Below, in pieces: positions 10,661 through 51,039 of a stretch of DNA of 64,000 nt; the stretch's first letter is position 1, and each line of letters begins with the position of its first letter. The DNA comes from Halobacteriales archaeon QS_4_69_34 (GTDB taxonomy: Archaea > Halobacteriota > Halobacteria > Halobacteriales > Halococcaceae), in NCBI GenBank assembly GCA_003021045.1, contig PXRN01000003.1, positions 126,001 to 190,000 of the forward strand, read 5' to 3'. A program made the position numbers and the translations under genes. Below the pieces are notes generated by a model. That model saw only the letters and a program-made list of their open reading frames with translations. It was not told where the DNA came from and ran no database searches.

Positions 10661-12358
10661 ATGAACACGCTCCTCGTGGGGCTCGACGCGGCGTGCCGGC
10701 CGGTGCTCGATCGACTCTCCGGGACCGCCGAGCTACCGGCAATCGATCGACTCCTCACCGAGGGCGCGACCGGCCGGCTACGATCACAGATCCCCCCGTG
10801 GACGGCGAGCGCGTGGCCCTCCCTCTATACCGGAACGAACCCCGGCAAGCACGGCGTCTTCGGCTTCCTCGAGTTCGCGGGCTACGACTGGAACGTCGTC
10901 GACGCCACCCACGTCCGACAGCCCGCCCTCTGGGAGCTGCTCTCCGGCGAGGGCCTGTCGAGCGTCGTCGTCAACGTGCCCGTCACTCACCCCCCACGGG
11001 AGTTCGACGGCGCGCTGATCCCGGGCTACGTCGCCCCCGAGGACCCCGCCTGCCATCCCGAGGGACTCCTCGACGAGGTGCGCGAGGCGATCGGCGAGTA
11101 CCGCGTCTACCCGCGTCACACCGGTGGGCGGGAGACGAGCGAGGCCGAGAAGGTCACGGAGTACCGCGCGACGGCCCGGATGCGCGGCGACGCCTTCAGG
11201 TATCTCGCCGAGCGGTTCGACCCCGAGTTCGGGTTCGTCCAGTTCCAGAGCACCGACACCGTGTTCCACGAATGCCCGGACAGTCTGGACGCCGCCGGTG
11301 CGGTCTACGAGGCCGTCGACGAGCAGGTGGGCGCGATCCTCGACGCTTGTGAGCCAGGGACGGTCGTGCTCGCCAGCGATCACGGGATCGGCGAGTACGG
11401 GGGATACGAGTTCCGCGCGAACGCCTTCCTCCGTGACGCCGGGTTCGTGCGGACGAAGCGAGGCGGCGCAGGCGGGATGCCCTCGTGGGATACGATCCGC
11501 GACGACCGGTTTCTGGACGGGAACGGCAGCGATGGAAGGACCGGCGAGGACCGCGGGGACGGCGGGGACGGCCGAACCGGGGCCGCTCGCCCGCGAACGG
11601 TCCGGAGCGGAGCGTTCGACAGCGAGCGCGCACTCCGGCGGGCGATGGCGCTGGCCGCGCGGGCGGGCGCGACGAGCCAGCGCCTCGAAAGTGTCCTCGA
11701 ACGCCTCGGGCTCGCGGAGTTCGTCGTCAAGCACGTCCCCAAGGGGATGATCCGCGCGGGCACCGAGCGGGTCGACTTCCCCGCCTCGCGGGCGTTCATG
11801 CGCTCGCGCATCGAGTGTGGCGTCCGGCTCAACGTAGCCGGACGCGAGCCGAACGGCGTCGTTTCACCCGAGAGCTACGACGCCGTCCGCGAGGAACTGA
11901 TCGAACTCCTCTCGACCGTGGAGACGCCCGACGGAACGCCCGTCTTCGAGGACGTCGCCCCCCGGGAGGCGTACTTCCACGGCCCCGAGGCCGAGCGCGC
12001 CGTCGACATCGTGGCCGTCCCCGCCGACTTCGATCAGTTCCTCTCGACGCAGCTCCGGGAGTCCGTGTTCGGCCCGCCGACCGAGCCGTGGAACCACAAG
12101 CGCGAGGGGGTCGTCGCCGTCGCCGGCACGGGGAGCGACGCGGAAGCGTCGCTCGCGGGCGCGCACCTCTTCGACGTCGCACCCACGGTGCTGGCGACGT
12201 TCGGCCTCGGGCGCGGTACCCACATGGACGGCGACGTGCTCGCTCCCGTGGAGCCGGCGGGCGAGCGCGAGTATCCCGCCGTGGCGGACCGGGAACGGAC
12301 GACGACCGACGATCGCGCGGTCGAAGCACGCCTCTCCGAGTTGGGGTATCTGGAATGA
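10661..12358 (+). CDS. Type I phosphodiesterase / nucleotide pyrophosphatase-like AP-superfamily enzyme
   Basis: This 565-residue soluble alkaline-phosphatase-superfamily protein has the first metal Asp in LLVGLDAACRPVLDRL, a probable Thr nucleophile in PPWTASAWPSLYTG (ten residues before the Gly of the TG turn, as in nucleotide pyrophosphatases), STDTVFHE, and the DH pair in VVLASDHGIGEYGG. A Gly/Asp/Arg-rich insertion sits near residue 285. The C-terminus ends in VEARLSELGYLE, the tail shared with AP-superfamily proteins of the 25-51 kb island. There is no signal peptide or membrane helix. ATG at 10661 overlaps the stop of a seven-codon upstream reading frame (10641-10664). The next gene overlaps by 4 bp. 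The substrate is unknown; a phosphodiester of a lipid or glycan precursor is plausible. Confidence 0.85.
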   Translation: MNTLLVGLDAACRPVLDRLSGTAELPAIDRLLTEGATGRLRSQIPPWTASAWPSLYTGTNPGKHGVFGFLEFAGYDWNVVDATHVRQPALWELLSGEGLSSVVVNVPVTHPPREFDGALIPGYVAPEDPACHPEGLLDEVREAIGEYRVYPRHTGGRETSEAEKVTEYRATARMRGDAFRYLAERFDPEFGFVQFQSTDTVFHECPDSLDAAGAVYEAVDEQVGAILDACEPGTVVLASDHGIGEYGGYEFRANAFLRDAGFVRTKRGGAGGMPSWDTIRDDRFLDGNGSDGRTGEDRGDGGDGRTGAARPRTVRSGAFDSERALRRAMALAARAGATSQRLESVLERLGLAEFVVKHVPKGMIRAGTERVDFPASRAFMRSRIECGVRLNVAGREPNGVVSPESYDAVREELIELLSTVETPDGTPVFEDVAPREAYFHGPEAERAVDIVAVPADFDQFLSTQLRESVFGPPTEPWNHKREGVVAVAGTGSDAEASLAGAHLFDVAPTVLATFGLGRGTHMDGDVLAPVEPAGEREYPAVADRERTTTDDRAVEARLSELGYLE

Positions 12359-14134: not shown

Positions 14135-15217
14135 TCAGCCGCCCTCGCCCGCGGCGGTGACGTTGAGCGAGAGGTACGCCTCGCGGTAGGCGTTCGAGGG
14201 GAGTGGCACCCGATCGGCCGGAGGCTCGTCCCGGTAGAGGAGATACGCGAGCCGGAGGTCGTCGCCGGCGACGCCCGACGGGAGGCTGAAGTTGTGCCCC
14301 CGTCGCCACGACTCGTTGGCCGCGACGCTCGGGGTGAAGGTGTCGAGCTCGGTGCGGCCGACGACGGTGCCGTTCTCGTTCACCCGTTCGAGTTGGGCGA
14401 CGACGGTGTAGTTGACTCGTCGCTGTTCGTCGTTCTCGACGAGAACGGTGACCTCGCCGCTCCCGCCGGCAGCGAGGTCGGTCGGGTAGTCCGCGAAGGC
14501 CAGCTCGCCCGTCTCGTTGTTGCCCGCGAGGAGGTAGATCCCCGAGGTCGTTGAGCCCGGGTTGGGGACCGCGAGCGCGTAGGTCACGCTGGCGACCGCG
14601 GCGACGATGCTGAAGATCAACACGAGGTTGACGAGCGCGTCGACGGGCGAGCCGACGAGGCTCGCGCGGAAGTCCCTGACCCACGTGCTGATGGGGAGTG
14701 CAAAGCGCTGCTCGCGGGGGAGCCGGAGGCGGCGCACCGTGGCGACCGCGAGAAGGACGAGGACGAACCCGACGAGCAACGAGACGATCGGTGCCGGGTC
14801 GAACGCCCACGGCGAGAGGTCGACCGCCAGTGCGAGCGGCGGGAGCAGAAAGAGGCTCAGGCCGAAGGCGAGCGCCACCCGCTCGCCCCAGCGGACGCCG
14901 CGGCGCTGGATCGAGCGGGCGCTGTCGAACTGTCGGGAGAGCCCCGAGAGCGCGCCGAGCTGGCTCGCGTTCCGGGAGGGGCGGCCGGGGAACAGCGCCG
15001 CCACCAGCGCATATCCCGGCAGGAAAACCAGCAGCGGGACGCCGAGGAGAAAGCGGGCGAGCGAGGGGGCGATCCCGACGGAGACGACGGCGACCCATGC
15101 GGCGACGGCGTAGCCGGCACAGGCGACGAGGTCGCCGGGAAAGCCGCTCGCGAGCGACGCGTCGCTCGCGTAGCGCTCGGCTCTCGCTTCACTGCCGGAA
15201 ATCGGATCGCGGGCCAC
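14135..15217 (-). CDS. DUF1616 family membrane protein
   Basis: This 360-residue protein has four hydrophobic helices in the first 230 residues (for example GVPLLVFLPGYALVAALFP) followed by an extracellular-type beta-rich C-terminal domain (YPTDLAAGGSGEVTVLVEN, NYTVVAQLERVNENG). This is the DUF1616 architecture common in archaea near glycosylation genes; its biochemical role is unknown. The start read here is GTG at 15217, with no ATG upstream in frame. The C-terminal domain is homologous to the shorter protein at 54230-54700, which keeps the same PTDLSPGETGELVGGITN segment. It probably heads a two-gene unit with the YdjM-like protein downstream. Confidence 0.82.
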   Translation of the reverse strand: MARDPISGSEARAERYASDASLASGFPGDLVACAGYAVAAWVAVVSVGIAPSLARFLLGVPLLVFLPGYALVAALFPGRPSRNASQLGALSGLSRQFDSARSIQRRGVRWGERVALAFGLSLFLLPPLALAVDLSPWAFDPAPIVSLLVGFVLVLLAVATVRRLRLPREQRFALPISTWVRDFRASLVGSPVDALVNLVLIFSIVAAVASVTYALAVPNPGSTTSGIYLLAGNNETGELAFADYPTDLAAGGSGEVTVLVENDEQRRVNYTVVAQLERVNENGTVVGRTELDTFTPSVAANESWRRGHNFSLPSGVAGDDLRLAYLLYRDEPPADRVPLPSNAYREAYLSLNVTAAGEGG

Positions 15218-25477: not shown

Positions 25478-25708
25478 ATGGACTCGTACGAGGCGGATCG
25501 AACCATCAAGTTGCCAGAACGAATCGTCGCCCGGGTCGAAGACCGACTGCCTCGAACCGAGTGGGACGAGCCAGAGGAGTATATCACCTACGTGTTGGAG
25601 GAAGTACTGTACCAGGTCGAGAAGGAGACCGAGAACGACGATTTCGAACCGATAGACGAGAGGGAAGTCAAAAGCCGTCTCAAGTCGCTGGGTTATCTGA
25701 ACGAGTAG
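25478..25708 (+). CDS. Small ribbon-helix-helix-like protein with C-terminal LGY tail
   Basis: This 76-residue protein has an N-terminal segment DRTIKLPERIVARVEDRL followed by EEYITYVLEEVLYQVEKE, the beta-strand/helix/helix pattern of small ribbon-helix-helix (CopG-like) proteins. A charged linker leads to VKSRLKSLGYLNE. The end matches the C-terminal tail of six AP-superfamily enzymes in this window, most closely VESRLKSLGYR at 50022. ATG 25478 is chosen as the first Met before the RHH-like part; GTG at 25463 would add five residues. It lies at the head of the glycan island, 53 bp before the YdjM-like gene. It could be a regulator or an adaptor for the tailed enzymes; neither is proven. Confidence 0.72.
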   Translation: MDSYEADRTIKLPERIVARVEDRLPRTEWDEPEEYITYVLEEVLYQVEKETENDDFEPIDEREVKSRLKSLGYLNE

Positions 25709-25761: not shown

Positions 25762-26343
25762 ATGGACGCACTGACGCACGTGTTTCTTCCTCTGTTGACG
25801 GCGTATGCTTTTCGACCAGACTCGTTCTCGTTGCAACATTACCTCCCCTTGGGATTGTTTGGCCTCCTCGCCGACCTCGACAAACTGGTTGGACTTCCAG
25901 GACTGCTACACTCGCTCGTCACGCTTGTGCCGATCTGTGTCAGTATGTTGGTGCTAGAACGGTTCCTCCGTGGCGGGCACCACTACAGCATTATTGCATC
26001 AGCATTCACACTTAGTCATCTCCTGCTAGATATCATCGAGGGCGTGACGGTGCCACTCCTGTACCCAGCTGTCACGACGGGCGTCGGGATCTCGTATCCC
26101 ATGGAGCTACTGGTCGGTCCCGGGGCGGGACCGTTCTGGTTCGCCGTCGATGGCCCGCCGGCCGCCCTGGACTTTGGCGGACTCAGGACGGGTCACGCAG
26201 CGAGCGAGGTCACCAGCAACGAGTTCGGGTTCATCAACGGGTACGGCGTAGCGACGACGCTGACTTTCGTTCTCGTGTTCGTCAGTCGGGAATACTTCGC
26301 CATCGATCCGTCTTCGATTGGTGCGGACGGTGATGACGAGTGA
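25762..26343 (+). CDS. YdjM-like membrane-bound metal-dependent hydrolase family protein
   Basis: This 193-residue polytopic protein of the YdjM/DUF457 type starts MDALTHVFLPLLTAYAF and has FGLLADLDKLVGLPGLLHSL and AFTLSHLLLDIIEG. These carry the family's His and Asp positions in membrane-associated loops. Its relative at 13520-14125 shares the same layout. ATG at 25762 follows an AT-rich stretch (TATTTGAA) that may be the promoter of the whole plus-strand operon. Its stop overlaps the GTG start of the first GT4 gene. The function of this family is not established; recurrence beside glycan genes suggests a role in envelope lipid or glycan metabolism. Confidence 0.78.
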   Translation: MDALTHVFLPLLTAYAFRPDSFSLQHYLPLGLFGLLADLDKLVGLPGLLHSLVTLVPICVSMLVLERFLRGGHHYSIIASAFTLSHLLLDIIEGVTVPLLYPAVTTGVGISYPMELLVGPGAGPFWFAVDGPPAALDFGGLRTGHAASEVTSNEFGFINGYGVATTLTFVLVFVSREYFAIDPSSIGADGDDE

Positions 26344-27449: not shown

Positions 27450-28696
27450 TGCACGTCGTCCACGTCTACGACGGCCACGAGAAAGCGTACGACGGTCGTG
27501 GTTCCGTTCCGAATGTGGTCTGGAACGTCGCCCGGGAGACGGCTGTCGCGGGCCACGAGGTGACCATCATCGAGCGCCAGTGGGACGGGCTTGGTTCGCA
27601 CGCCATCCATGACGGCGTCCGTTTCGAACGGCTCTCCTTGCGCACTGGCACCGATGAGCCCTGGGCCCGGGTTCCGTACGATCTAGTCGACGATCCGCTC
27701 GATCTATTGCGACTCGTGGGAGACCGGACGAACTTCGCGATCGCGGCACTACGTCGCTTACGGGAGACGGACGCCGACGTGATCCACGTCCATCTCCCGT
27801 TCGCGGCGAACGTCCTCGTGACGATCGCGCCGTGGCTCCGTGACCGGCTGGTATACACGGCACACCTCGGGGAACTCCGTATGGATGCGCTGATGGACGA
27901 AGCGACTACGGGGGACGGTTCCGACGATCTCGACGTACCGTCGATTCTCTCTCGCGTGTCGCCGGACGGATATCTGGCGCGTCGGGCGACCGCGACGACG
28001 GTATTGAACGCGGCTATCGAACGGCAGTTCATCGAACGTGGCGTTCCAGCAGCGAAGCTATCGACGATCCCGAACGGCGTCGACAGCAGCCGATTCGCAC
28101 CGATCGCCGAGACGGAACTGGATCGCGTCCGGTCACGCTACGACCTCGGTGACGGACCTGTAACGCTGTTCGTCGGCACCATCATGCCGCGGAAGGGGAT
28201 CCTCGATCTCGTTCGTGCGTGGGACGGAGCCGACGTCGATGGGACGCTCGTGCTCGCGGGTGAAGCGGATCTCGACGAAGAATACACTGTGTGTGTTCGA
28301 GACGAGGCACGCAAGCGTGGTATCGAGGGCCGAGTACGACTGACCGGGTTCGTCCCCGCCGACGACGTACCGCCGCTGTACTCGCTCGCGGATCTGTTCG
28401 TGCTGCCATCGCTCGAAGAAGGCTTCGGGATGACCGTGTTAGAGGCCATGGCCGCCGGCACGCCGGTCGTTGCGACGCGAGTCGGGGGAGTACCTCGGGT
28501 GATCGATGACGGCGAACAGGGGCTGTTGGTCGAAGCCGGCGAGGTCGGGGCGCTCTCGAAGGCGATCACGTCGCTGCTAGACGACCGCGACCGGAGTCGG
28601 CGAATGGGGCGTCAAGCACAGTGCCGCGCAGAGGAGTATTCGTGGCGTAGCGTGGGAAAAGAGTTTATATCGGTCTACCGTGCGGTGGAACAGTGA
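27449..28696 (+). CDS. GT4 glycosyltransferase
   Basis: This 415-residue GT4 enzyme starts MHVVHVYDGHEKAYDGRGS and has VTLFVGTIMPRKGILDLVRA and the EX7E region EEGFGMTVLEAMAAGTPVV. ATG 27449 overlaps the TGA of the previous gene (TGATG), so translation is coupled; the longer reading through the upstream gene is discarded. The downstream sulfatase-like gene starts with a GTG overlapping this stop. Domain order and length are normal for GT4. The donor sugar cannot be read from the sequence. Confidence 0.9.
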   Translation: MHVVHVYDGHEKAYDGRGSVPNVVWNVARETAVAGHEVTIIERQWDGLGSHAIHDGVRFERLSLRTGTDEPWARVPYDLVDDPLDLLRLVGDRTNFAIAALRRLRETDADVIHVHLPFAANVLVTIAPWLRDRLVYTAHLGELRMDALMDEATTGDGSDDLDVPSILSRVSPDGYLARRATATTVLNAAIERQFIERGVPAAKLSTIPNGVDSSRFAPIAETELDRVRSRYDLGDGPVTLFVGTIMPRKGILDLVRAWDGADVDGTLVLAGEADLDEEYTVCVRDEARKRGIEGRVRLTGFVPADDVPPLYSLADLFVLPSLEEGFGMTVLEAMAAGTPVVATRVGGVPRVIDDGEQGLLVEAGEVGALSKAITSLLDDRDRSRRMGRQAQCRAEEYSWRSVGKEFISVYRAVEQ

Positions 28697-29982
28697 GCCG
28701 GAACGTGGTACTGGTGACGTACGACAGCCTCCGTGCGGACCACTGTGGCTTCATGGGTTACGAGCGGGACACGACGCCCACGCTCGACCGGCTGGCTCAC
28801 GACGGTGTGGTCTTCGAGAACGCGGTCGCGTCGGGCGTGCCCACTATCGCGTCGATGACCGCGGTAATGACCGGGAACTACTCGCTGGCGAGTCCCGAAA
28901 TCGGCTTCGACGAAGCCCAGTGCAAGCAGGTCACCCAGCGACCGACGATCGCGGAGGTAGTATCGGAGGCGGGATATGCGACGGGCGGACTGTCACCGAA
29001 CCCACCCGCCTCGTCGTACTTTGGATTCGACGAGGGGTTCGACTGGTTCGAAGACTTCCTCGCTGCGGATCGTGGTGTGCTGGAACGGGCGTGGAACCGG
29101 GTGTTCGAGCGGTCGATTGCGGGGGGATCGGCGACGAGGTATCTCCGGTTGGCGAGAAACGTCGTGAGACGCGAGGAGGTCCTTCGGCCGTGGGAAGACT
29201 ACTACGACCACATCACGGAGTGGCGCGAGGCCGTCGAGGAACCGTATTTCCTGTGGATATTGGTACTGGAACCACACCATCCGTGGGTCCCGCCGTCGTC
29301 CTCCCAGCGATGGAGCTCGCGGTGGGACAAGTATCGGTCGTTCCGACACTACTGGGAAATGCTGAACAGCGGCTGGGAACCGGAATTCGACGGGACGGTT
29401 CGGGAGCGGATGATCGACCTATACGACGACTCGATCAGGCACGGCGACTCGTTTCTGGAACAGCTGTGGACGGACCTACAGGCGGACGAGCCGGTTTTCA
29501 TCGTACATTCGGACCACGGCGAGGAGTTCAGTGAAAACGGCCGGTACGGACATCAGCCGGATGTGACCGAGGAACTGATCCACGTACCGCTCGTAGTGTG
29601 GGGTCTCGAGGAGTCCTGGCGCGTCGAAACGCCCGTCGGACTGCGGGAACTGGCACCGACGATCGCCGAACTGACTGGCTCGCCGTGTCCCTTCGCCGGG
29701 CGTGATCTCCTCTCGCTGGACGACGACACGCGGCCGTGGGTAGTGTCGAAAGTGTTTGTCGGCGGGAAGCGGCGCGCAGCCGTGCGGACCGCGACCCACG
29801 AGTTCCGCCGCCGGAACGGTCGCACGGAACTGGTGGACGTCACTTCGGGATCGTGTGAATCGATCGGGAACGAGAGTGCGGCGGCGTTCGCAACCGCGCT
29901 CGACCGCCACGTGGCCGCCGAACGGGAGAAAGAGGCCGTCCGATCGGGCGGGGAGAGGCTGATCGTAGAGGGACGCGTATGA
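28693..29982 (+). CDS. Sulfatase-like AP-superfamily hydrolase/transferase with Thr at the nucleophile position
   Basis: This 429-residue cytoplasmic-type protein has the sulfatase-fold start VVLVTYDSLRADHCGFMG (metal Asp), VPTIASMTAVMTG in place of the formylglycine signature, VLEPHHPWV, and FIVHSDHGEEFSENGRYGH with the DH metal pair. The residue ten before the Gly of the TG turn is Thr, as in nucleotide pyrophosphatases and phosphoglycerol or phosphoethanolamine transferases, and no CxPxR motif exists. Phosphoester chemistry is therefore more likely than sulfate ester hydrolysis. It has no signal peptide or membrane helix and lacks the LGY tail. GTG 28693 overlaps the previous stop. Its closest neighbours in sequence are the proteins at 32054 and 34317. 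Confidence 0.85.
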   Translation: MSRNVVLVTYDSLRADHCGFMGYERDTTPTLDRLAHDGVVFENAVASGVPTIASMTAVMTGNYSLASPEIGFDEAQCKQVTQRPTIAEVVSEAGYATGGLSPNPPASSYFGFDEGFDWFEDFLAADRGVLERAWNRVFERSIAGGSATRYLRLARNVVRREEVLRPWEDYYDHITEWREAVEEPYFLWILVLEPHHPWVPPSSSQRWSSRWDKYRSFRHYWEMLNSGWEPEFDGTVRERMIDLYDDSIRHGDSFLEQLWTDLQADEPVFIVHSDHGEEFSENGRYGHQPDVTEELIHVPLVVWGLEESWRVETPVGLRELAPTIAELTGSPCPFAGRDLLSLDDDTRPWVVSKVFVGGKRRAAVRTATHEFRRRNGRTELVDVTSGSCESIGNESAAAFATALDRHVAAEREKEAVRSGGERLIVEGRV

Positions 29983-30874: not shown

Positions 30875-32057
30875 GCCAGGGAGCTCTCCACCCCCTGTGT
30901 CCGGGAGCGTCGGCACGGTGAGATCCGTCGGGACGCCGGACGTGTCGGTGTGTCACTTGCTGGGGTCGCTCGGAAGCGGCGGTCGAGAGACCCTCATTCG
31001 AGACCTCATCGTACACAGCGACTCGGCAACGTCGCATACGATCTGCTGTTTCAGAGAGGACGGCGAGCAGGCTGCCCGCTTCGCAGAGCGCGGGGTAGAC
31101 GTCGTCTCGGTCGATGCCAGTTCGAAGCGGGACCTCCGCGCGATCGGTCGTCTCGGTCGCGTGCTCTACCGGCACGACTTCGACGTTCTCCACGCCCACG
31201 GCATGAACGCTCAGGTTCCGGGGCGTATCCTCGCCCGTCTCTGTGGCATCGACAGTATAGTTAGCACACATCACGGGGTGCGGGAGCTGTACCCCGAGCG
31301 GTTGTGTCAGTTCGAGCGCGTGACACGATTGCTCGATACTGCGACCGTCGCGGTCTCCGAAGGCGTCGAACGCTCGTTCGTCGGCGACGGCAACCGGAGT
31401 CAGTGGCGAACGATCCGGAACGGAATCGACGTGGACGGGTTCGATGCAGCGGTCGAGGCCGCCGATGGCCGAGCGAGTCGGCGGGCGCACGGCGTGGGCC
31501 CCGAGGAGACGGTGTTTCTGAACGTCGGACGGTACGTACCACCCAAATCACAGACCGACCTCGTGGACTCCCTACACCGTGTCGTCCAGCAGCGACCGGA
31601 TATCCATCTGTTCATCGTCGGGGGACGAGGGCCGATGGCTCCACGGATTCGTGGTCGCGTTTCCGACCGCGGACTCGATGACAGCGTCAGTGTAACCGGA
31701 CATGTCGACGGCATCCACGACTACTACGCGGCCGCCGACGTGTTCGTCTCTTCGTCGGTCGGTGAGGGATTGCCGATCGTCCAACTCGAGGCGATGGCAG
31801 CCGAACTTCCGGTCGTCGCAACCGACATCCCCGGCGTTCGAGAAGTCGTCGTCGAGGGGGAAACCGGATGGCTCGTCCCGCCAAACGATCCGTCGGCGCT
31901 CGCCGAGGCGATGCTCGCGGTGGCTGCCGAAGACACCCGTAAGGGGTACGGTCGGGCAGGCTACGAACGCGTCCGCGAGGAGTTCCACGTCAGGGACACC
32001 GCCGCGTCGTACGCCTCGCTCTATAGGACGATAGCTACCGAAGGGGGATGGCGATGA
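30867..32057 (+). CDS. GT4 glycosyltransferase
   Basis: This 396-residue GT4 enzyme has SVCHLLGSLGSGGRETLIRD (GG turn), DVLHAHGMNAQVPGRI, STHHGVRELYPER, VFLNVGRYVPPKSQTDLVDS and the EX7E-like EGLPIVQLEAMAAELPVV. The catalytic-region motifs are complete. ATG 30867 overlaps the FkbM stop by 8 bp. The N-terminal 28 residues are Ser/Pro/Gly-rich and probably disordered. The enzyme lies between FkbM and a run of three AP-superfamily genes, within the same coupled operon. Confidence 0.88.
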   Translation: MGEPGSSPPPVSGSVGTVRSVGTPDVSVCHLLGSLGSGGRETLIRDLIVHSDSATSHTICCFREDGEQAARFAERGVDVVSVDASSKRDLRAIGRLGRVLYRHDFDVLHAHGMNAQVPGRILARLCGIDSIVSTHHGVRELYPERLCQFERVTRLLDTATVAVSEGVERSFVGDGNRSQWRTIRNGIDVDGFDAAVEAADGRASRRAHGVGPEETVFLNVGRYVPPKSQTDLVDSLHRVVQQRPDIHLFIVGGRGPMAPRIRGRVSDRGLDDSVSVTGHVDGIHDYYAAADVFVSSSVGEGLPIVQLEAMAAELPVVATDIPGVREVVVEGETGWLVPPNDPSALAEAMLAVAAEDTRKGYGRAGYERVREEFHVRDTAASYASLYRTIATEGGWR

Positions 32058-33364
32058 GCGACGGCCGACCAAACATCGTCCTGGTGACGATAGACAGCCT
32101 ACGAGCGGACTACTGTGGCTACATCGACGACGACAGCACCGCGACGCCAACACTGGACCGGCTGGCTGAGGAGGGACTGGCCTTCGAAACCGCCATTGCG
32201 CCGGGACCGTCCACGCCGGAGTCGATGCCGGCTGTCTTCACCGGGGAGTATCCGGTCGACGGCGACGAGAACACGCTAGCAGCGTGGCGCGACCGGATTC
32301 GCCAGCATATACGGACCCGGGATCCCCTGGCGTCCCGGCTCTCGCGGGCCGGCTACGAGACGGCGGCGTTCACGCCCAATCCGTTCACTTCGCGCCACTT
32401 CGCCTTCGATCAGGGGTTCGATCACTTCCAGGATTTCATGGACGGGTCACGCGATGGGGTGTACGACCGGCTCTTCGAGGGATTCCTACAGGGTGGCTCG
32501 GCGTCATCGTTCGTCCGCGTGCTGGTCAACTTCTGGCGGCGCGAGGAGGTATTCAAGTCGTGGGAGCGGTACTACGACGAGATTCTCGAGTGGATTGCGG
32601 AAGCCGAGGAGCCGTACTTCCTGTGGGTGTTCCTGATGGACGCCCACAGCCCGTATCTCGCGGGTGAAGGGTATCGGAGCCAGTCGCGGTGGAAACAGTT
32701 CCACGCGAACTACCGATTCTGGCGGGAAAGTCACGAAACACCGTTCTCACCCTCGGTCCACGACCGGCTGCTTACCGCTTACGAGGATGCGGTCCGGTAC
32801 TCGGATGGGTTCCTCGCGCGGCTCCGGTCGGACCTCGCAGACGACCCGATCATCGCCGTCCACGGCGACCACGGGGAGGCGTTCGGCGAGCACGGGACGT
32901 ACGGCCACGAGCCATATCTTCGCTCCGAAAACGTCCACGTGCCGCTGGTCGTCGGGAACGTTCCGTCGGGCGCGGTCGCTTCGCCGTACTCGCTGCGGCG
33001 GCTGCCTGAGCTCGTGACCGGCCTCGCGGCAAGAAGAAATGGAGTTCCGGATCCCTGGTACGCCATCTCGAGATCCCATCAAGAGGATCGACTTACCGTT
33101 CGAACCCGCGAGTGGACGTTCCTGCACGACAGCGACGAAGCGATCGTCCACCACCGGAACGGGACGAAGACCTCGAAATCGGACGAGACAGGGACGATGC
33201 GGTCGACGGTAGATACGGCAGGCAGGGGAACACCTGACTCGGACGGGGCGAACACGGAGCGAGACGCGTTGTCGAGCCTCGGTGCAGTCGCCGAGACGTT
33301 CGCGGAATCAATGCGGGAACGCCAGCGGGTCCGCGACGCCGCGGCGTCGGAGGGGGAGCGATGA
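32054..33364 (+). CDS. Sulfatase-like AP-superfamily enzyme with Thr at the nucleophile position
   Basis: This 436-residue protein starts MSDGRPNIVLVTIDSLRADY, with GPSTPESMPAVFTG at the nucleophile loop (Thr in the usual Cys/Ser position), FLMDAHSPYL supplying Asp and His ligands, and IIAVHGDHGEAFGEHGTYGH. It shares a long central segment with the protein at 28693 (WRREEVFKSWERYYDE against VRREEVLRPWEDYYDH), so the two are tandem duplicates. ATG 32054 is preferred over 32048: it overlaps the previous stop (ATGA) and has GGGGGA just upstream. The C-terminal 70 residues are charged and lack the LGY tail. No secretion signal is present. The substrate is unknown. Confidence 0.85.
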   Translation: MSDGRPNIVLVTIDSLRADYCGYIDDDSTATPTLDRLAEEGLAFETAIAPGPSTPESMPAVFTGEYPVDGDENTLAAWRDRIRQHIRTRDPLASRLSRAGYETAAFTPNPFTSRHFAFDQGFDHFQDFMDGSRDGVYDRLFEGFLQGGSASSFVRVLVNFWRREEVFKSWERYYDEILEWIAEAEEPYFLWVFLMDAHSPYLAGEGYRSQSRWKQFHANYRFWRESHETPFSPSVHDRLLTAYEDAVRYSDGFLARLRSDLADDPIIAVHGDHGEAFGEHGTYGHEPYLRSENVHVPLVVGNVPSGAVASPYSLRRLPELVTGLAARRNGVPDPWYAISRSHQEDRLTVRTREWTFLHDSDEAIVHHRNGTKTSKSDETGTMRSTVDTAGRGTPDSDGANTERDALSSLGAVAETFAESMRERQRVRDAAASEGER

Positions 33365-34320
33365 GTCTCCGAGATTGGGTCGGAAACACGACGACGCGGG
33401 TCAGAGAAGACGGCCTCAGCGGTGTCGCCGAAAGTGGCCGACGTCTATACACCGGCTTCTGGCGTGTCGCAGGCTCGCGGCTCCCGCTTGGGACAAACAT
33501 CTACGATCGCGAGTGGGACGTACTGGTGTTGCTCGATGGGTGCCGCGTCGACCTCCTCTCGGAGGTCGCCTCCGGGTATCCGTACCTACTGCCGATCGAC
33601 TCGATCCGATCGGTGGGAAGCTCCTCTCGTGAATGGTTGGCGAAGACGTTCGTCGCGGCACACGCCGACAAAGTCGGACGGACCGTCTACGTGACTGCGA
33701 ACCCGTACTCCGAGGAGATACTCTCCCCTGGCGGCGCCGAGAACAATCGATCCCCGTTCAATCCGGAGAACTGGTCGTCGCTGAACGCGGCGGAGTTCGC
33801 GCGCGTCGAAGAGGTCTGGCAGGACGGCTGGGACGACTCCCTCGGAACGGTGCCACCCAGGCGGATGACCGACCGCGCTATCACGGTTGCGAGAAACGAA
33901 TCGCCGGAGCGGTTGATCGTTCACTACATGCAGCCACACCAACCGTTCATCGAGATGGTTTCCGACGACCAACCGGACTGGATACGTGGCAACTGCTGGA
34001 GCGCGATGCAGCGAGGCGACGTTTCGAGGAACACCGTCTGGGCAGCGTACAGACAGAACTTGCGGCTCGCGATGGAAGAAGTCTCGCTGTTGAGGCGGTC
34101 GATCGACGCCGCCAGACTGGTCGTTTCATCCGATCACGGTAACGCCTTCGGCGAGTGGGGGATCTACGGCCACCCGAACGGGTCCCTCCATCCAGCCGTC
34201 AAGCGCGTCCCGTGGGCGGTAACGAACGCCGCGGACACTGACGAGTACGATCCGGACGTCGAACGCGAGAGCTCCGAAGCGAGCGTCGAAGAACGGCTCG
34301 AAGGACTGGGATACCTATGA
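33361..34320 (+). CDS. AP-superfamily 'QPH' subfamily protein
   Basis: This 319-residue protein has EWDVLVLLDGCRVDLL (first metal Asp), a Ser-rich nucleophile loop SVGSSSREWLAKTF, VHYMQPHQPFIEM, and SSDHGNAFGEWGIYGHPNGS with the DH pair and a later His. It belongs with the proteins at 42058, 45000 and 50022, all carrying Gln in QPH where sulfatase-like relatives have Asp (DPH or DAH). It ends VEERLEGLGYL. ATG 33361 overlaps the preceding stop. No signal peptide or transmembrane helix is visible. The biochemical role of this subfamily is unknown to me; phosphate-ester chemistry on a glycan intermediate is an inference. Confidence 0.78.
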   Translation: MSLRDWVGNTTTRVREDGLSGVAESGRRLYTGFWRVAGSRLPLGTNIYDREWDVLVLLDGCRVDLLSEVASGYPYLLPIDSIRSVGSSSREWLAKTFVAAHADKVGRTVYVTANPYSEEILSPGGAENNRSPFNPENWSSLNAAEFARVEEVWQDGWDDSLGTVPPRRMTDRAITVARNESPERLIVHYMQPHQPFIEMVSDDQPDWIRGNCWSAMQRGDVSRNTVWAAYRQNLRLAMEEVSLLRRSIDAARLVVSSDHGNAFGEWGIYGHPNGSLHPAVKRVPWAVTNAADTDEYDPDVERESSEASVEERLEGLGYL

Positions 34321-35654
34321 AGAGCGTCGAGTCACAGGACGCACGTGAAAACATAATACTACTCACGATAGACAGTCTGCGGGCGGACCACTGTGGATTC
34401 ATGGGGTGTGAGCACGACACGACGCCGACGCTGGACCGTCTGGCTCGCGATGGCGTCGTTTTCGAGAACGCGATCGCTCCGGGCCCGCGGACACCCTCCT
34501 CGATGCCGGTAGCCTTCACCGGACGGTTCGGTCGGCAAGAGGAGGTACCGTGGAGTGACTGGAGGGAACGCTGGGACCGCATCGCCGACCTCCTCCGGCG
34601 ACACCGCACCCTCGCCGAGCGGCTACAGTTCGACGGGTATACAACGATCGGCGTTACGGCGAATCCGTGGACACAGAAGACGGGGTTCGATCTCGGTTTC
34701 GACCGATTCCTCGAACTCCAAGGAGCGGACGTGATCAAGAGCGGTAGCGGGAACGGGCAGACGTTCCGGGTACTGGACTGGCTCTTCGACCGGACGAGAC
34801 TCGGTCGAGAGTACCAGTGGGACCAAGCCCGCGACTGGTTCGTCCAGTGGACGCACTACTACGACCGCATTCTAAAAGCGGTTCGCAAGGTGGAGCAGCC
34901 ATACTTCCTGTGGGTGTTCGCTCTCGACCCGCATCAGCCGTACCTGGCCCCGCGGACACACCGGACGGAGACCTCTGCAGCGTCGATGTACTACGCCAAC
35001 GTTCGGGAACGAGTGGCCGGATCGCTCGACGAACTGTCGTCGCGGACCCGGACGTGGCTGAAGCGTTCGTATCGCGATTCGATCCGTTCCGCCGACAGGC
35101 TCGTCGCTGCGCTAGAAGACGATCTGGCAGCCGGTGATCCCACATTCGTCGTCCATGCCGATCACGGCGAAGCGTTCGGCGAGCACGGGACGTTCGGTCA
35201 CGAGGAACAGGTGTACGAGGAGAACCTCCACGTCCCGTTCGTCGTTTCGGGTGTCGGCAGCCAGACCGTGCGCGACCCGGTGTCGCTCCGCTCGTTGCCG
35301 GCACTACTGGAGCGACTCGGAAGCGGCGAACCGCTCCATCCCGAGGAGTTCACACGGGAGTACGTCACCGCCACGACGGAAGGGATCCACACACGGGCCC
35401 GTACAGTTCGAGGTCAGCGATGGAAATACATCACCGACGGTGTCGGTGGCGAGCTGTACGACCTGAACGCGGATCCGGGGGAGACGGAGAATCTGATCGA
35501 AGGACGACCCGAACTGGCCGAACAGCTACGGCATCTACTCGAGGCGCGTCACGCTCACGACGCCGAGACGGGCGCGATCGTGCAGGCCGTGGATGCCGTC
35601 AACGGGGCTGGTAAGCGACGAACACGGAGGTCGGACGGTCATGCCGGGGGGTGA
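34317..35654 (+). CDS. Sulfatase-like AP-superfamily enzyme with Thr at the nucleophile position
   Basis: This 445-residue protein starts MKSVESQDARENIILLTIDS and has GPRTPSSMPVAFTG (Thr at the nucleophile position), FALDPHQPYLAP, and VVHADHGEAFGEHGTFGHEEQ. Near the C-terminus, GELYDLNADPGETENLIEG is a classical sulfatase-family C-terminal motif. It resembles the proteins at 28693 and 32054 in the N-terminal 120 residues and central region. ATG 34317 overlaps the upstream stop (ATGA). It lacks the LGY tail and has a basic C-terminus (GKRRTRRSDGHAGG). Cytoplasmic location and phosphoester chemistry are inferred from the absent signal peptide and the Thr. Confidence 0.86.
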   Translation: MKSVESQDARENIILLTIDSLRADHCGFMGCEHDTTPTLDRLARDGVVFENAIAPGPRTPSSMPVAFTGRFGRQEEVPWSDWRERWDRIADLLRRHRTLAERLQFDGYTTIGVTANPWTQKTGFDLGFDRFLELQGADVIKSGSGNGQTFRVLDWLFDRTRLGREYQWDQARDWFVQWTHYYDRILKAVRKVEQPYFLWVFALDPHQPYLAPRTHRTETSAASMYYANVRERVAGSLDELSSRTRTWLKRSYRDSIRSADRLVAALEDDLAAGDPTFVVHADHGEAFGEHGTFGHEEQVYEENLHVPFVVSGVGSQTVRDPVSLRSLPALLERLGSGEPLHPEEFTREYVTATTEGIHTRARTVRGQRWKYITDGVGGELYDLNADPGETENLIEGRPELAEQLRHLLEARHAHDAETGAIVQAVDAVNGAGKRRTRRSDGHAGG

Positions 35655-42057: not shown

Positions 42058-43041
42058 ATGAAACCGACGTCGAAAATAAAAGCAGGCATTCGGAATCCCT
42101 CGAAGGTGTTGCCGTATCTCAGGCAGAAAGCCATACAGCCACTTCGCGGAGCCGCAGCAATGAAAGCGACCGCCGGCAATCCCTCTCAGAAAGCATTACT
42201 CGACGACCTCCGGGAGCAGGACTCGTGGCTGTTGATCGTCCTTGACGCATGTCGATATCCGGAATTCAGTGAACTTGCACCCGCAGTATTCGAGGGAGAT
42301 CTGGAGAAAATGACGACGGAAGGCCACGACACGTTCGAGTACGTCCGCTCCTGCTGGCCGGGATCGTATCCGGATGTCACGTATCTCTCGGGTACGCCAG
42401 CGGTGAATTCGGGAACCTTAGAGATCGACGACGAGGCGTTGGCTGAAAAGTACGATGGATTCGTATCGGCCGACCACATCGGCGACATAGTGGACGTCTG
42501 GCAGTCCGGATGGAACGAATCCCTCGGGGTGATTCCACCGTGGAACGTTACGCCCGTTGCCAAAGATTATCTCGATGAGAACCAACTAGTCGTTCATCAC
42601 GTCCAGCCGCATGCCCCATACGTTGGAGTTGAGCGAGAACTAGGTCATCACAACGACGAAAGCGCTACCCCCGGCGATGGCGAACCGATCGATGCCCCCC
42701 TCTGGAGACGAATTAAAAGTGGAGAAATCGCGGAGTCGAGGTTAGCTGAACTCTATCAGTCGAATCTAGAGGCCGTACTGTACGAAGTGGCAAAACTCGT
42801 CGAAGAGGCGCCACACGACACCGTCGTCATCATGGGAGACCACGGCGAGGCACTCGGCGAGTACTGGACGTACGCCCATCCCCGAAAGGACCATCCATAC
42901 GTTCTGACGGCACCCTGGATGGAGGTGACGGGAGTCGAAGCCGACTGGCGGTCGCGGCTCACGGTCCCGGATGTGGACCAGTCGACCGCTACCGAGGACT
43001 CAAGTGTCGCGGCCCGGCTACGCGAACTCGGCTACAAGTGA
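42058..43041 (+). CDS. AP-superfamily 'QPH' subfamily protein
   Basis: This 327-residue protein has SWLLIVLDACRYPEFSEL (metal Asp), a likely nucleophile loop TEGHDTFEYVRSCWPG, VVHHVQPHAPYVGV, VVIMGDHGEALGEYWTYAHP and the C-terminal tail VAARLRELGYK. The N-terminal 55 residues are basic (MKPTSKIKAGIRNPSKV). It is the last plus-strand gene before the convergent minus-strand series. A 65-bp gap separates it from the GT4 gene, with TATA-like ACATATAC near 42001-42008, so it might have its own promoter. It shares the Gln-for-Asp change with the other three members. Confidence 0.78.
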   Translation: MKPTSKIKAGIRNPSKVLPYLRQKAIQPLRGAAAMKATAGNPSQKALLDDLREQDSWLLIVLDACRYPEFSELAPAVFEGDLEKMTTEGHDTFEYVRSCWPGSYPDVTYLSGTPAVNSGTLEIDDEALAEKYDGFVSADHIGDIVDVWQSGWNESLGVIPPWNVTPVAKDYLDENQLVVHHVQPHAPYVGVERELGHHNDESATPGDGEPIDAPLWRRIKSGEIAESRLAELYQSNLEAVLYEVAKLVEEAPHDTVVIMGDHGEALGEYWTYAHPRKDHPYVLTAPWMEVTGVEADWRSRLTVPDVDQSTATEDSSVAARLRELGYK

Positions 43042-44999: not shown

Positions 45000-45998
45000 C
45001 TAACGGGCTTCACTTATGTAACCGAGATGTTCCAGTATATCCTCGGCGTGACGTCCGGAATCGGCGCTGGAATCGAGCTGTGGTGTATAGGAGCGAGAAT
45101 CAGTTGCGTCCGTAGTTACCCATGCAACACGACGGACAGAGGGATGGAGGCTTCCCGCGTGGTGTTCGTAGACAGCATGTTCTCCGAACGCCTCGCCGTG
45201 GTCGGCCGTAATCGCTACCGCATCGGCATCGAGATTGTTCAATAGGGTCTCCACGTCATCCAGGACGAACCGCAACTCGTCGAGGTACGTTTCGAGCACG
45301 GTTCCTCGATCACCGGTTTTCCGCATGTACTCCCAGGGTTCTTTCTCGTGTTCGTAGAGTTCCCGGCCGTCTGTGACGGCGGCAGCCACGTACGGATGAT
45401 GCGGTTGCATGTAGTGTAGAATAACGTTGTCGAAATCATAATTCCTCGAAACGGCTATCCCCCGATCAGTCACGTGGCGTGGAGGAGTATATCCATCCGT
45501 CTGACCACCGGGCCCGCGTTCGTTCGTCACTTCGTGTCTCCAGATGTGTTCTATACGGCCGAATTCACCGGGTGAAACAACGTCCCAGCTACCGTATCGG
45601 GAGAGCCGTTCGATATGTTTGTCCTCGGCATTCATGTCGTCCTCGAAAACTGATTTCGTATGGGGATTGGCGGAGAGATAGGCAGTCGTCGAAAGTGTCT
45701 CGTCGTGTCTTCGGTCAAACGTGTGTGCCATCCACTCCCCCGAGTGCCCGCCGACCGACCAGAGTTCCTCGATCGCGTCCAGAAACGGATATTCGTCCGC
45801 TATGGCCCGTAGAGCGTCTACGCGACAGCTGTCCAGAACGATCAGGACGTCCCAGTCCAGATCCAGGACGTTCGTTCCCACGGGACGCCGCGATGTGTAC
45901 CAAACAACGCTGTTTCGGACCGGTGAGTATCTGGTCTGGACGTATCTAGCAGCGGACCTCGGATTCCGGAGGGCCGATGTTATTCTCCACCAGTCCAT
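45000..45998 (-). CDS. AP-superfamily 'QPH' subfamily protein
   Basis: This 332-residue protein has DWDVLIVLDSCRVDALRAI, a nucleophile loop SVGGHSGEWMAHTF, ILHYMQPHHPYVAA, ITADHGEAFGEHAVYEHHAG and SLHPSVRRVAWVTTD, and ends DILEHLGYISEAR. It is closest to the protein at 33361 (GTNIYDREWDVL against GTNVLDLDWDVL, and GSLHPAVKRVPW against GSLHPSVRRVAW). ATG 45998 (MDWWRITSALRNPRSA) is preferred; the frame continues upstream to a GTG inside a 28-bp direct repeat, without conserved sequence. As in its relatives, Gln replaces the usual metal-ligand Asp. No signal peptide. Confidence 0.78.
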   Translation of the reverse strand: MDWWRITSALRNPRSAARYVQTRYSPVRNSVVWYTSRRPVGTNVLDLDWDVLIVLDSCRVDALRAIADEYPFLDAIEELWSVGGHSGEWMAHTFDRRHDETLSTTAYLSANPHTKSVFEDDMNAEDKHIERLSRYGSWDVVSPGEFGRIEHIWRHEVTNERGPGGQTDGYTPPRHVTDRGIAVSRNYDFDNVILHYMQPHHPYVAAAVTDGRELYEHEKEPWEYMRKTGDRGTVLETYLDELRFVLDDVETLLNNLDADAVAITADHGEAFGEHAVYEHHAGSLHPSVRRVAWVTTDATDSRSYTPQLDSSADSGRHAEDILEHLGYISEAR

Positions 45999-46072
45999 CG
46001 ACTTGTATACCTCTGAAGCGGAACCGTACTTAGTCTGTTCGCCGGCCGTCCACCCTGACTCGGCGTCCACCC

Positions 46073-46100
46073 AACTGACAAAACGTCGTCTACTCCACAC
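46073..46100. repeat. 28-bp direct repeat, copy 1
   Basis: The copy begins AACTGACAAA and ends GTCTACTCCACAC. It matches copy 2 at 46138-46165 at 27 of 28 positions. The repeat period is 65 bp, and the pair lies in the gap between two AP-superfamily genes. Confidence 0.8.
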
Positions 46101-46168: not shown

Positions 46169-47635
46169 TCACCGATACCCTAGTCGCTCGAGCTGGTCGA
46201 GAACGTCCTCTTCGTCATCGTACTCCACCGCACGACCCTCGTCGTCGAGCACTGGCAGCGTTTCGAGGAGGTTCTCGTAGCTGTCGCGTAGCCGTTCTAC
46301 CACGGCCGGGTGAGCCTCCACGACGTTTCGCTGCTCGTCCGGATCCTGCTCCAGGTCGTACAGTTCGGGGGGCGGGCCATGTACTGTCTCGCAGTAGCGA
46401 CATTCCATCCCGTTCGTCGGGAGAGCCTCGTCCGGGACGTGTCGAATGTACTTCCAATCGTCGGTCCGGACTGCCGTTCGTCGCTGGGTGTACGCCTCCT
46501 CGGCGTAGACCGCCTCGCGTTCGTCCCACCTGCCCTCCTCGAGGAGGGGAAGCAACGACCGGCCGAACGCTCCGAGCGAGGAATCGACGCCCAGGATATC
46601 GGTGATCGTCGGAGCAATGTCAGGGAGCTGGACGAGTTCGTCGTGTCTCGTTCCGCACGTCTCCGGCGTGGTGACGATGAGCGGGACGTGCATGGTCTCG
46701 TCGTAGAGTCCGTGGTGGTCCGCGAAAATATCGTGCTCGTACAGCGACTCACCGTGGTCGCTACAGACGACGAGGGCCGTCTCCTCCCATCGACCGCGCT
46801 CCTGGAGCCGATCCCACAAATAGCCGATTTTCCTGTCAGCCTGGACGACTCCGGCATCGTATCGGGCACAGAGCCTCGAGAGTCCACCCTCGAAATCACG
46901 CGGGGTCAGCCACGGGCGAATCGACGTATCGAGGAATCCGCCGTCGGGAGCGCCGGCCAAGACGGACTCCAGATCTTGATCCGGGTACTCACGTTCGGCG
47001 TGAAGTTCATCGACCAAGTCCTCTGACGGCGTGTAGGGTATGTGCGGGTCGAGAATGCGGAAAAATCCGTAGAAGGGGTCCGCTCCGATTTCGTCCAGCA
47101 ACTGGTCGGTGTACGGCGCTGTGAACTCCTCACCGTAGTCCGGGGCCCCCGACCACGGGAGCAGACCGTGGATGCGGGGTCCGAAGCTTACGCCACTCGG
47201 ACTGATGGACTCTATCGCATCATACATGGTTTGCAAACGAGTCCCCTCGGGGCTGTTTTCGGATCGAAGGACGTCGAACCCGTTCTTGTGCCACCGACCG
47301 ATACCCGGTGCGACGGCGACTGTCCGCCATCCCGCAGCACGCAACTGCCCGGGGACAGTCGGAAGTTGTTCGGCACGGGACTTCTCGGTATTGGTCACCA
47401 GATTAGCATGGTGGTAGACCGACGTCCGGGGATAGTGACCCGTGTGTATCGAGGTGACCGACGCGTCGGTCGCATTACTGGCGGTGGACGCCCGTGAAAA
47501 GACCGCCCCCTCCCGTGCGAGTTCGTCGATGTTAGGAGTCAGTGAGTCATCCGTGGAGCCAGTACATACTCCGACACGATCTGCTCGGAGCGCGTCCACG
47601 ACTACCAGTAACAGATTCCTCACACCATTACTCAT
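46169..47635 (-). CDS. Sulfatase-like AP-superfamily enzyme with LGY tail
   Basis: This 488-residue protein has NLLLVVVDALRADRVGVCTG (metal Asp), NATDASVTSIHTG at the nucleophile loop with Thr in the Cys/Ser position, RILDPHIPYTPSEDL, VVCSDHGESLYEHDIFADHH, and the C-terminal sulfatase motif ELYDLEQDPDEQRNVVEAHP. It ends VLDQLERLGYR. Full sulfatase-fold length and C-terminal subdomain are present, but no CxPxR formylglycine motif. ATG 47635 starts MSNGVRNLLLV. No export signal is visible. It probably acts on phosphate esters or diesters; the substrate is unknown. Confidence 0.87.
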   Translation of the reverse strand: MSNGVRNLLLVVVDALRADRVGVCTGSTDDSLTPNIDELAREGAVFSRASTASNATDASVTSIHTGHYPRTSVYHHANLVTNTEKSRAEQLPTVPGQLRAAGWRTVAVAPGIGRWHKNGFDVLRSENSPEGTRLQTMYDAIESISPSGVSFGPRIHGLLPWSGAPDYGEEFTAPYTDQLLDEIGADPFYGFFRILDPHIPYTPSEDLVDELHAEREYPDQDLESVLAGAPDGGFLDTSIRPWLTPRDFEGGLSRLCARYDAGVVQADRKIGYLWDRLQERGRWEETALVVCSDHGESLYEHDIFADHHGLYDETMHVPLIVTTPETCGTRHDELVQLPDIAPTITDILGVDSSLGAFGRSLLPLLEEGRWDEREAVYAEEAYTQRRTAVRTDDWKYIRHVPDEALPTNGMECRYCETVHGPPPELYDLEQDPDEQRNVVEAHPAVVERLRDSYENLLETLPVLDDEGRAVEYDDEEDVLDQLERLGYR

Positions 47636-50021: not shown

Positions 50022-50951
50022 TCACCGATACCCAAGTGACTTGAGCCGCGATTCTACGGTCTCTTTATCGAGCTTCCGAATGCTATCGTCGGGAACCTCC
50101 GAAAACGTCGTTCTCCGCGAAGAATAGGGGCACTCGTGCCACGGAACGGTGGTCAACGGATCGAGACGGATTCCCCGTTTGTGGAGTATTCCTCGAACCG
50201 GGATGGGATAGAGGCGTTCACCGAAAAGCTCGCCGTGATCCGACGTGATCACCGTTTTTCCGTCCAGATCGTTGATCAGGTCTGTGATGATCTCGTGTAC
50301 GATTGCTAAATTCTCCCGATACGCTTCGTGTACTCGCTTTTCTGTCACGCCATCAACTCGGCCCCGTAAATAGGTCTGTATACCGATGTGGGACCGGTCG
50401 TGACCTACCCCCTCGGGTGGGTTGCCGCTTACCGGAAGCTCGTTTTGCATCGGCCCGATTGGTGGAAGATGTGGCTGCATGAAATGAACCAGCAGCCGTT
50501 TGTTCGGATACTCCGACATCGCTTCGCGGGTTTTCGCCGCCACGACGGATGGCGGAACTGTCCTCAGTTCCTGATCCCAGTACTGTTCGGAATACAACTG
50601 CTCGAACGAGTGAAAACGATCCCCGAAGGGCTCACTGTGCGGATTCGCCGTTACACAGACTGTCTCGAACCATTCGTTCACACCGATGTTTTCTTCGTAC
50701 CACTCCGCTGAGGTACTGGCAAGTGACCGTCGTGGCCGGGTGGTTCCGGGCAAGTGAGAGACCGAGACGAAATCGTCGTATCGGCATGCATCGAGTATCA
50801 ACAGGCTGTCCCAGTCTTCTGCCATCATATTCGTTCCCGATTTGGCGACGAATTTCTGGTGAAATGCAGAGTTTATATCCGTGGAGATTCTGTTGATGCG
50901 TGACAGGCCAAATCGGGGATCTCTCCGTAGTGCTTTTATTCGATCGAGCAT
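50022..50951 (-). CDS. AP-superfamily 'QPH' subfamily protein
   Basis: This 309-residue protein has EDWDSLLILDACRYDDFVSV, nucleophile loop STSAEWYEENIG, VHFMQPHLPPIGP, TVITSDHGELFGERLYPIPV, GILHKRGIRLDPL, and the tail VESRLKSLGYR, nearly identical to VKSRLKSLGYLNE of the small RHH-like protein at 25478. ATG 50951 (MLDRIKALRRDPRFG) is preferred to an upstream start at 50999, which adds poorly placed basic residues. The QPH change (Gln for Asp) is conserved. It lies 88 bp downstream of an FkbM-like methyltransferase gene on the same strand. Confidence 0.78.
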   Translation of the reverse strand: MLDRIKALRRDPRFGLSRINRISTDINSAFHQKFVAKSGTNMMAEDWDSLLILDACRYDDFVSVSHLPGTTRPRRSLASTSAEWYEENIGVNEWFETVCVTANPHSEPFGDRFHSFEQLYSEQYWDQELRTVPPSVVAAKTREAMSEYPNKRLLVHFMQPHLPPIGPMQNELPVSGNPPEGVGHDRSHIGIQTYLRGRVDGVTEKRVHEAYRENLAIVHEIITDLINDLDGKTVITSDHGELFGERLYPIPVRGILHKRGIRLDPLTTVPWHECPYSSRRTTFSEVPDDSIRKLDKETVESRLKSLGYR

Positions 50952-51039
50952 TGTTCTCTGCCGGATTTGGAAAGGAATGGGTTTTCTCTCCTGTGACACC
51001 CATGAACGCCAGTGAATTCTCTCCCGAGATCAGATACAC

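Follow-up and report, generated by a model that had tools for sequence, protein, structure and literature searches.

The window analysed here, i.e. the whole stretch of 64,000 nucleotides from Halobacteriales archaeon QS_4_69_34, raises the question of why enzymes with differing bodies, together with a protein of only 76 residues, should end in nearly the same R-L-x-x-L-G-Y tail (here the LGY tail). An earlier note, made from the letters alone, had placed this tail on six AP-superfamily enzymes and on the small protein, and had suggested that it could serve in docking or targeting.

The tail and its carriers in the window

All seven tails were found at the genes named, among the open reading frames of the window. 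The features are as follows, where each tail was read from the sequence, that of 10661 was also seen in a predicted model and that of the small protein in a homologue alignment.

10661..12358, + strand: AP-superfamily enzyme, type I phosphodiesterase, 565 aa, tailed (PF01663, E=2e-28)
12320..12355, + strand: tail of 10661, VEARLSELGYLE
25478..25708, + strand: RHH-like small protein with LGY tail, 76 aa (homologues, AlphaFold, weak PDB matches)
25667..25705, + strand: tail of the 76-aa protein, VKSRLKSLGYLNE
28693..29982, + strand: sulfatase-family enzyme, tailless, downstream of the small protein (PF00884, E=9e-37)
32048..33364, + strand: sulfatase-family enzyme, tailless (PF00884, E=1.5e-35)
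33361..34320, + strand: AP-like enzyme, 319 aa, tailed (PF00884 below cut-off, E=0.003)
34285..34317, + strand: tail of 33361, VEERLEGLGYL
34317..35654, + strand: sulfatase-family enzyme, tailless (PF00884, E=4e-29)
42058..43041, + strand: AP-like enzyme, 327 aa, tailed (PF00884 below cut-off, E=0.015)
43006..43038, + strand: tail of 42058, VAARLRELGYK
45000..46100, - strand: AP-like enzyme, tailed (PF00884 below cut-off, E=0.0003)
45003..45041, - strand: tail of 45000, DILEHLGYISEAR
46169..47635, - strand: sulfatase-family enzyme, 488 aa, tailed (PF00884, E=4e-35)
46172..46204, - strand: tail of 46169, VLDQLERLGYR
50022..50999, - strand: AP-like enzyme, 325 aa, tailed (PglZ/PF00884 below cut-off)
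50025..50057, - strand: tail of 50022, VESRLKSLGYR

The enzymes 10661 and 46169 score above the curated Pfam cut-off (PF01663/PF00884) and are clear members of the AP superfamily; for these two the assignment in the earlier note stands, and for the other four (33361, 42058, 45000 and 50022), which match PF00884 or PglZ below the curated cut-off only, membership is likely rather than proven. The three sulfatase-like paralogues that had been described as lacking the tail (28693, 34317 and 32048, the last given earlier as 32054) do lack it.

An LxxLGY end closes 7 of the 56 called genes of the window, and shuffling the last 30 residues of these genes produced a mean of 0.013 such ends and a maximum of 1. 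Among 418 called proteins, a sample made up of neighbourhoods picked around the small protein, 34 tails were counted against 0.15 expected from the internal frequency. A chance origin is excluded by the excess over the shuffles, by the internal frequency and by the backward-read pattern described below. The proteasome HbYX motif (hydrophobic-Tyr-X at the very end of the chain) and a fixed C-terminal signal were also considered and rejected: the LGY tails do not show HbYX, as Gly stands before the Tyr and the number of residues past the Tyr varies.

Of the 27 homologues closest to 10661 in a sequence search, 26 extend over the tail region, and the tail is kept in full-length homologues down to ∼39% identity. 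In the predicted model of 10661 the core is mostly at pLDDT >90, residues 544-550 form a linker below 50, and the tail helix (residues 551-560) lies at ∼75. Foldseek finds the core to resemble ENPP and phosphonoacetate hydrolase, and no listed relative of known structure reaches as far along the profile as its tail-bearing end. Burial of the tail in the enzyme core had been named beforehand as a result that would speak against a docking element; the model instead predicts a separate helix outside the core, behind a disordered linker.

Spread of the tail across genomes and families

We scanned 146 Halobacteria genomes for the DNA pattern R-L-x-x-L-G-Y-x-x-stop, using the same pattern read backwards as the control. 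The pattern matched 120 of the 146 genomes, at roughly 1-2 matches per genome, and the control gave almost none. Of the haloarchaeal carriers found in this way 72 were scanned, and nearly all of these matched AP-superfamily families (41 Phosphodiest and 38 Sulfatase, with overlap). As these carriers had been selected by the tail itself, PF00884 genes were also taken without such selection from 12 other haloarchaeal genomes, and 39 of 52 ended in the tail. The window's own genome has the tail on 15 of the 19 AP genes found, the tailless ones being 28693, 32048, 34317 and one pyrophosphatase-like gene.

When genome contigs were scanned, at least 118 stretches came up, belonging to haloarchaea, Myxococcota, Planctomycetota, Acidobacteriota, Thermoplasmatota, Chloroflexota and others. 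Among the matches listed, 44 carriers were non-haloarchaeal: 31 matched Phosphodiest and 22 Sulfatase, again overlapping, about ten small RHH-like proteins accounted for most of the remainder, and one was an unrelated epimerase in which the Arg is missing. The carrier groups are few, i.e. AP-superfamily enzymes (the large majority), small RHH-like proteins, APS kinase, a CysD-like protein and a DUF2061 protein. A tail exclusive to AP enzymes is ruled out by the last four groups, and the crossing of families noted earlier goes further than the window had indicated, into many bacterial phyla. The search could have revealed a ubiquitous tail with no link to AP-superfamily genes, which the earlier note had set as a test of its reading; it came out otherwise, with the tail strongly tied to these genes. 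One truncated ORF (L174:5029-5700) ends in an LGY tail that comes after a TonB-receptor-like C-terminal stretch. In the open-access literature we found no description of the LGY tail, nor of AP-family sulfotransferases with APS kinase.

The small protein and its tailless neighbours

The 76-residue carrier is a real gene, as its homologues occur in 44 of the 146 Halobacteria genomes and start at about the same Met. The L, L, G and Y of the tail are invariant across 35 homologues, bacterial ones included. AlphaFold predicts for the monomer an extended N-terminus, helices at 14-26 and 32-52, a weak linker at 53-60 and a tail helix at 61-71; the models of both the small protein and 10661 place the tail helix beyond the fold, at the end of a flexible linker. 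The best PDB matches are the RHH proteins NikR and ParD, although these matches are weak (E ∼0.01 by profile, 0.5-4 by fold). The likeness to NikR/CopG/ParD lies in the predicted topology and in these weak sequence and fold matches, whereas the small protein adds the C-terminal LGY helix and has no nickel-binding domain, and DNA binding by it is putative. A truncated sulfatase remnant was rejected as an origin, the protein belonging to an RHH-like family of its own that is conserved across domains.

Several other small-protein families and neighbours were seen. Directly downstream of the small protein, at 25762-26343 of the window, lies a YdjM/DUF457-type membrane protein (PF04307), and a gene of this type also follows the small protein in loci L031, L032 and L033. 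A second RHH-LGY class (MTEYTTVSIPK...; L025-L030, L098:1915-2112, L278 near 14467-14493) has conserved neighbours among Halobacteria, with no AP gene within the flanks seen. Thermoplasmata RHH-LGY genes (L164, L168, L177, L181, L197) adjoin purE-like and GMP-synthase PP-loop-like genes rather than AP genes, as judged by sequence resemblance only. A haloarchaeal protein of 67 aa from a different family (L073:1504-1704, L114:2038-2238) ends in an LGY tail as well; its L114 copy matches DUF7553 weakly.

Of 20 haloarchaeal loci, 17 have an AP gene at most 4 genes from the small protein; 13 AP genes directly adjoin it, and 7 of these are in divergent orientation. Within the same distance 17 of 22 haloarchaeal AP genes are tailless and 5 tailed, compared with 9 tailless and 39 tailed among 48 background AP genes (Fisher p=7e-6, which is not a clean probability as the genomes are related and the tailless genes are maybe one subfamily). 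The bacterial small protein is found after AP genes without a tail, of the Phosphodiest or another type (L218, L249, L269, L241, L243). The window's 28693 groups in one cluster with the tailless sulfatases that flank the small protein in other genomes, and the neighbours without a tail may be no more than a single sulfatase subfamily that has a C-terminus of its own. Such sulfatases next to the small protein (L034, L035, L037, L041, L045 and others) have a C-terminal ERERxRIxxA stretch in common, perhaps another kind of tail or else a surface for binding. A recurrent cluster of Planctomycetota and Acidobacteriota (L218, L249, L269, L241, L196, L233) combines AP genes, RHH-LGY and a membrane protein of 247-314 aa, for which the two copies scanned (L218, L196) gave no Pfam match.

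The small protein had been proposed as an adaptor or a competitor of the enzymes. An adaptor acting in trans fits better, because most AP enzymes encoded next to the small protein have no tail; it would supply the tail to enzymes that have none of their own.

Sulfate activation and the proposed role of the tail

Of the 146 Halobacteria, 8 have a canonical APS kinase and 3 an ATP sulfurylase, these 3 being exactly the genomes with a tailed APS kinase (L354-L356). In these three the APS kinase adjoins the ATP sulfurylase and bears the LGY tail past its native end; the five other-type haloarchaeal APS kinases (L357-L361) have no tail, and the one neighbour of L357 tested is a P-loop sulfotransferase. 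APS kinases of Chloroflexota (L397), Eisenbacteria (L399), Acidobacteriota (L401) and Armatimonadota (L419) also carry the tail beyond the native end, and alignments with solved APS kinases run no further than residue 179 of the 200 in L399, covering the native part only. The tailed proteins are complete APS kinases above the curated Pfam cut-off (CysC, PF01583), set apart by an extension of ∼25 residues past the native C-terminus that closes with LGY. Most of the bacterial APS kinases examined are untailed. RHH-LGY genes adjoin ATP sulfurylase in L258 (by Pfam) and L247 (by resemblance only), and one is near an APS kinase in L244. Bacterial and archaeal operons that bring these genes together with AP genes are:

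L426: RHH-LGY/SAT/AP/APSK-LGY/AP
L419: SAT/AP/APSK-LGY/AP/DUF2061-LGY, with DUF2061 as a further carrier
L425: RHH-LGY/APSK-SAT/AP/RHH-LGY
L418: SAT/DHH/AP/APSK/RHH-LGY
L422: APSK/AP/DHH/RHH-LGY

A CysD-like protein is present in 145 of the 146 Halobacteria, and all the homologues examined close with ...LRDLGYM. Among named proteins its best relatives are CysD and 1zun_A, and it falls short of the NCBIfam CysD cut-off (E ∼1e-20, 72-78 bits vs 195); it is a relative of CysD, the ATP sulfurylase small subunit, without being filed as CysD. The native C-terminus of bacterial CysD-type proteins is alike, LRRDGYM or LRREGYM (L409, L421), so that the CysD-like carrier may be convergent or ancestral. 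The tail is found on several enzymes of one pathway, i.e. APS kinase, the CysD-like protein and AP enzymes, where the placing of the AP enzymes in that pathway rests on shared operons. The figure of 45/47 is by itself weak support, because APS kinase is common. The presence of the tail on APS kinase, CysD-like and DUF2061 proteins, together with its bacterial reach, points to activated-sulfate/sulfotransfer chemistry.

What the sequences show is a conserved, separable C-terminal helix, confined to few families and encoded in operons around sulfate activation and AP enzymes. We give about an even chance to reading the LGY tail as a docking helix that is portable and belongs to a prokaryotic activated-sulfate/sulfotransfer machinery, acting in cis or in trans. 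AP-superfamily enzymes, probably glycan sulfotransferases or related transferases, bear the helix behind a flexible linker; elsewhere the same helix is appended to APS kinase or presented by the small RHH-like protein, and in Halobacteria the CysD-like protein ends in it as well. Carriers would dock through the tail to a common partner or to one another, and the sulfate donor would then be made where the AP enzyme consumes it. In the window, the 76-aa protein, probably an RHH dimer, would supply the tail in trans to 28693, 32048 and 34317. The earlier proposal of a docking or targeting element crossing families, with the small protein as adaptor, fits these findings; physical docking, a receptor, sulfotransferase activity of the carriers and donor delivery are what we infer from them. 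Counting against the docking helix are the absence of canonical SAT and APS kinase from most Halobacteria, the many AP carriers seen outside any sulfate-activation cluster, some of which could be phospho-transferases or hydrolases, and the lack of an AP gene in the flanks seen of class B RHH-LGY genes, of most Thermoplasmata ones and of L155 and L204. A wider scheme is more doubtful and only tentatively put forward: a bacterial-archaeal sulfation metabolon in which PAPS-making enzymes and AP sulfotransferases dock through LGY with the help of RHH-like adaptors, and in which many "sulfatases" and "phosphodiesterases" of Planctomycetota, Acidobacteriota, Myxococcota and Halobacteria would be sulfotransferases.

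The RHH-like fold of the small protein and the divergent arrangement of 7 of its 13 adjacent AP genes would also suit a DNA-binding autoregulator of the neighbouring sulfatase-like gene, whose C-terminal helix senses or oligomerises, with the enzyme tails feeding level or occupancy back on transcription. We regard this as unlikely, since bacterial copies sit within operons, downstream of or between enzyme genes, and since the tails on APS kinase and the DUF2061 protein would be left unexplained. Somewhat less likely still is a tail that packs on its own AP catalytic domain as a lid or stabilising helix, with the small protein giving the helix in trans. Most carriers are AP enzymes, the small protein tends to have AP neighbours without a tail and the tail helix of 10661 is predicted at pLDDT ∼75, all of which such packing would account for; however, the linker is disordered and of variable length, and APS kinase, CysD-like and DUF2061 proteins carry the tail without having an AP domain. 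A C-terminal degron or quality-control tag is suggested by the placement of the tail on unrelated proteins, but is very improbable given that its carriers are a few functionally linked families rather than the whole proteome, that the varying number of residues past the Tyr leaves no fixed C-terminal group to be read, and that the Gly before the Tyr departs from proteasomal HbYX. Hardly credible is a common helix-capping sequence that builds up at C-termini through chance or a biophysical preference. A marginal PF08823 peptidoglycan-binding match to a 66-aa protein and similar native ends on several untailed APS kinases can be cited for it; against it stand the strong excess over the shuffles and the backward-read pattern, carriers that are nearly all AP or sulfate-linked, and a tail retained in both distant full-length homologues (∼39% identity) and most unselected PF00884 genes (39/52).

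If the tail does mark proteins that work with activated sulfate, it would provide a sequence handle to tell probable sulfotransferases apart from genuine sulfatases in the AP superfamily, whose annotation cannot be relied on, and would also name their partners, i.e. APS kinase, ATP sulfurylase, the RHH-like adaptor and the DUF2061 protein. A shared plug of this kind would account for many enzymes labelled merely "sulfatase-like". The question of the sulfate donor for archaeal N-glycans would become directly testable, because most Halobacteria are without canonical ATP sulfurylase and APS kinase but their universal CysD-like protein is tailed.

Two further known systems resemble the one proposed here. 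The enzymes of bacterial microcompartments carry encapsulation peptides, i.e. a short terminal helix on a flexible linker that is found on unrelated enzymes of the same pathway. The LGY tail resembles these in being a terminal helix on a flexible linker common to unrelated enzymes, although its sequence differs and no shell-protein genes were noticed near the carriers in an unsystematic inspection. In Halobacterium salinarum the AP-superfamily proteins VNG1056C and VNG1057C are N-glycan sulfotransferases in vivo, as deletion and heterologous expression show N-glycan sulfation (PMC11980604); among relatives of the carriers, sulfate transfer is known for these two only, and it counts in favour of the proposed reading. 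The text of that paper mentions neither LGY nor the sulfate donor, and the likeness of these two proteins to the present carriers is one of family, together with a sulfatase-like annotation and a place in a haloarchaeal N-glycosylation cluster (PMC11980604).
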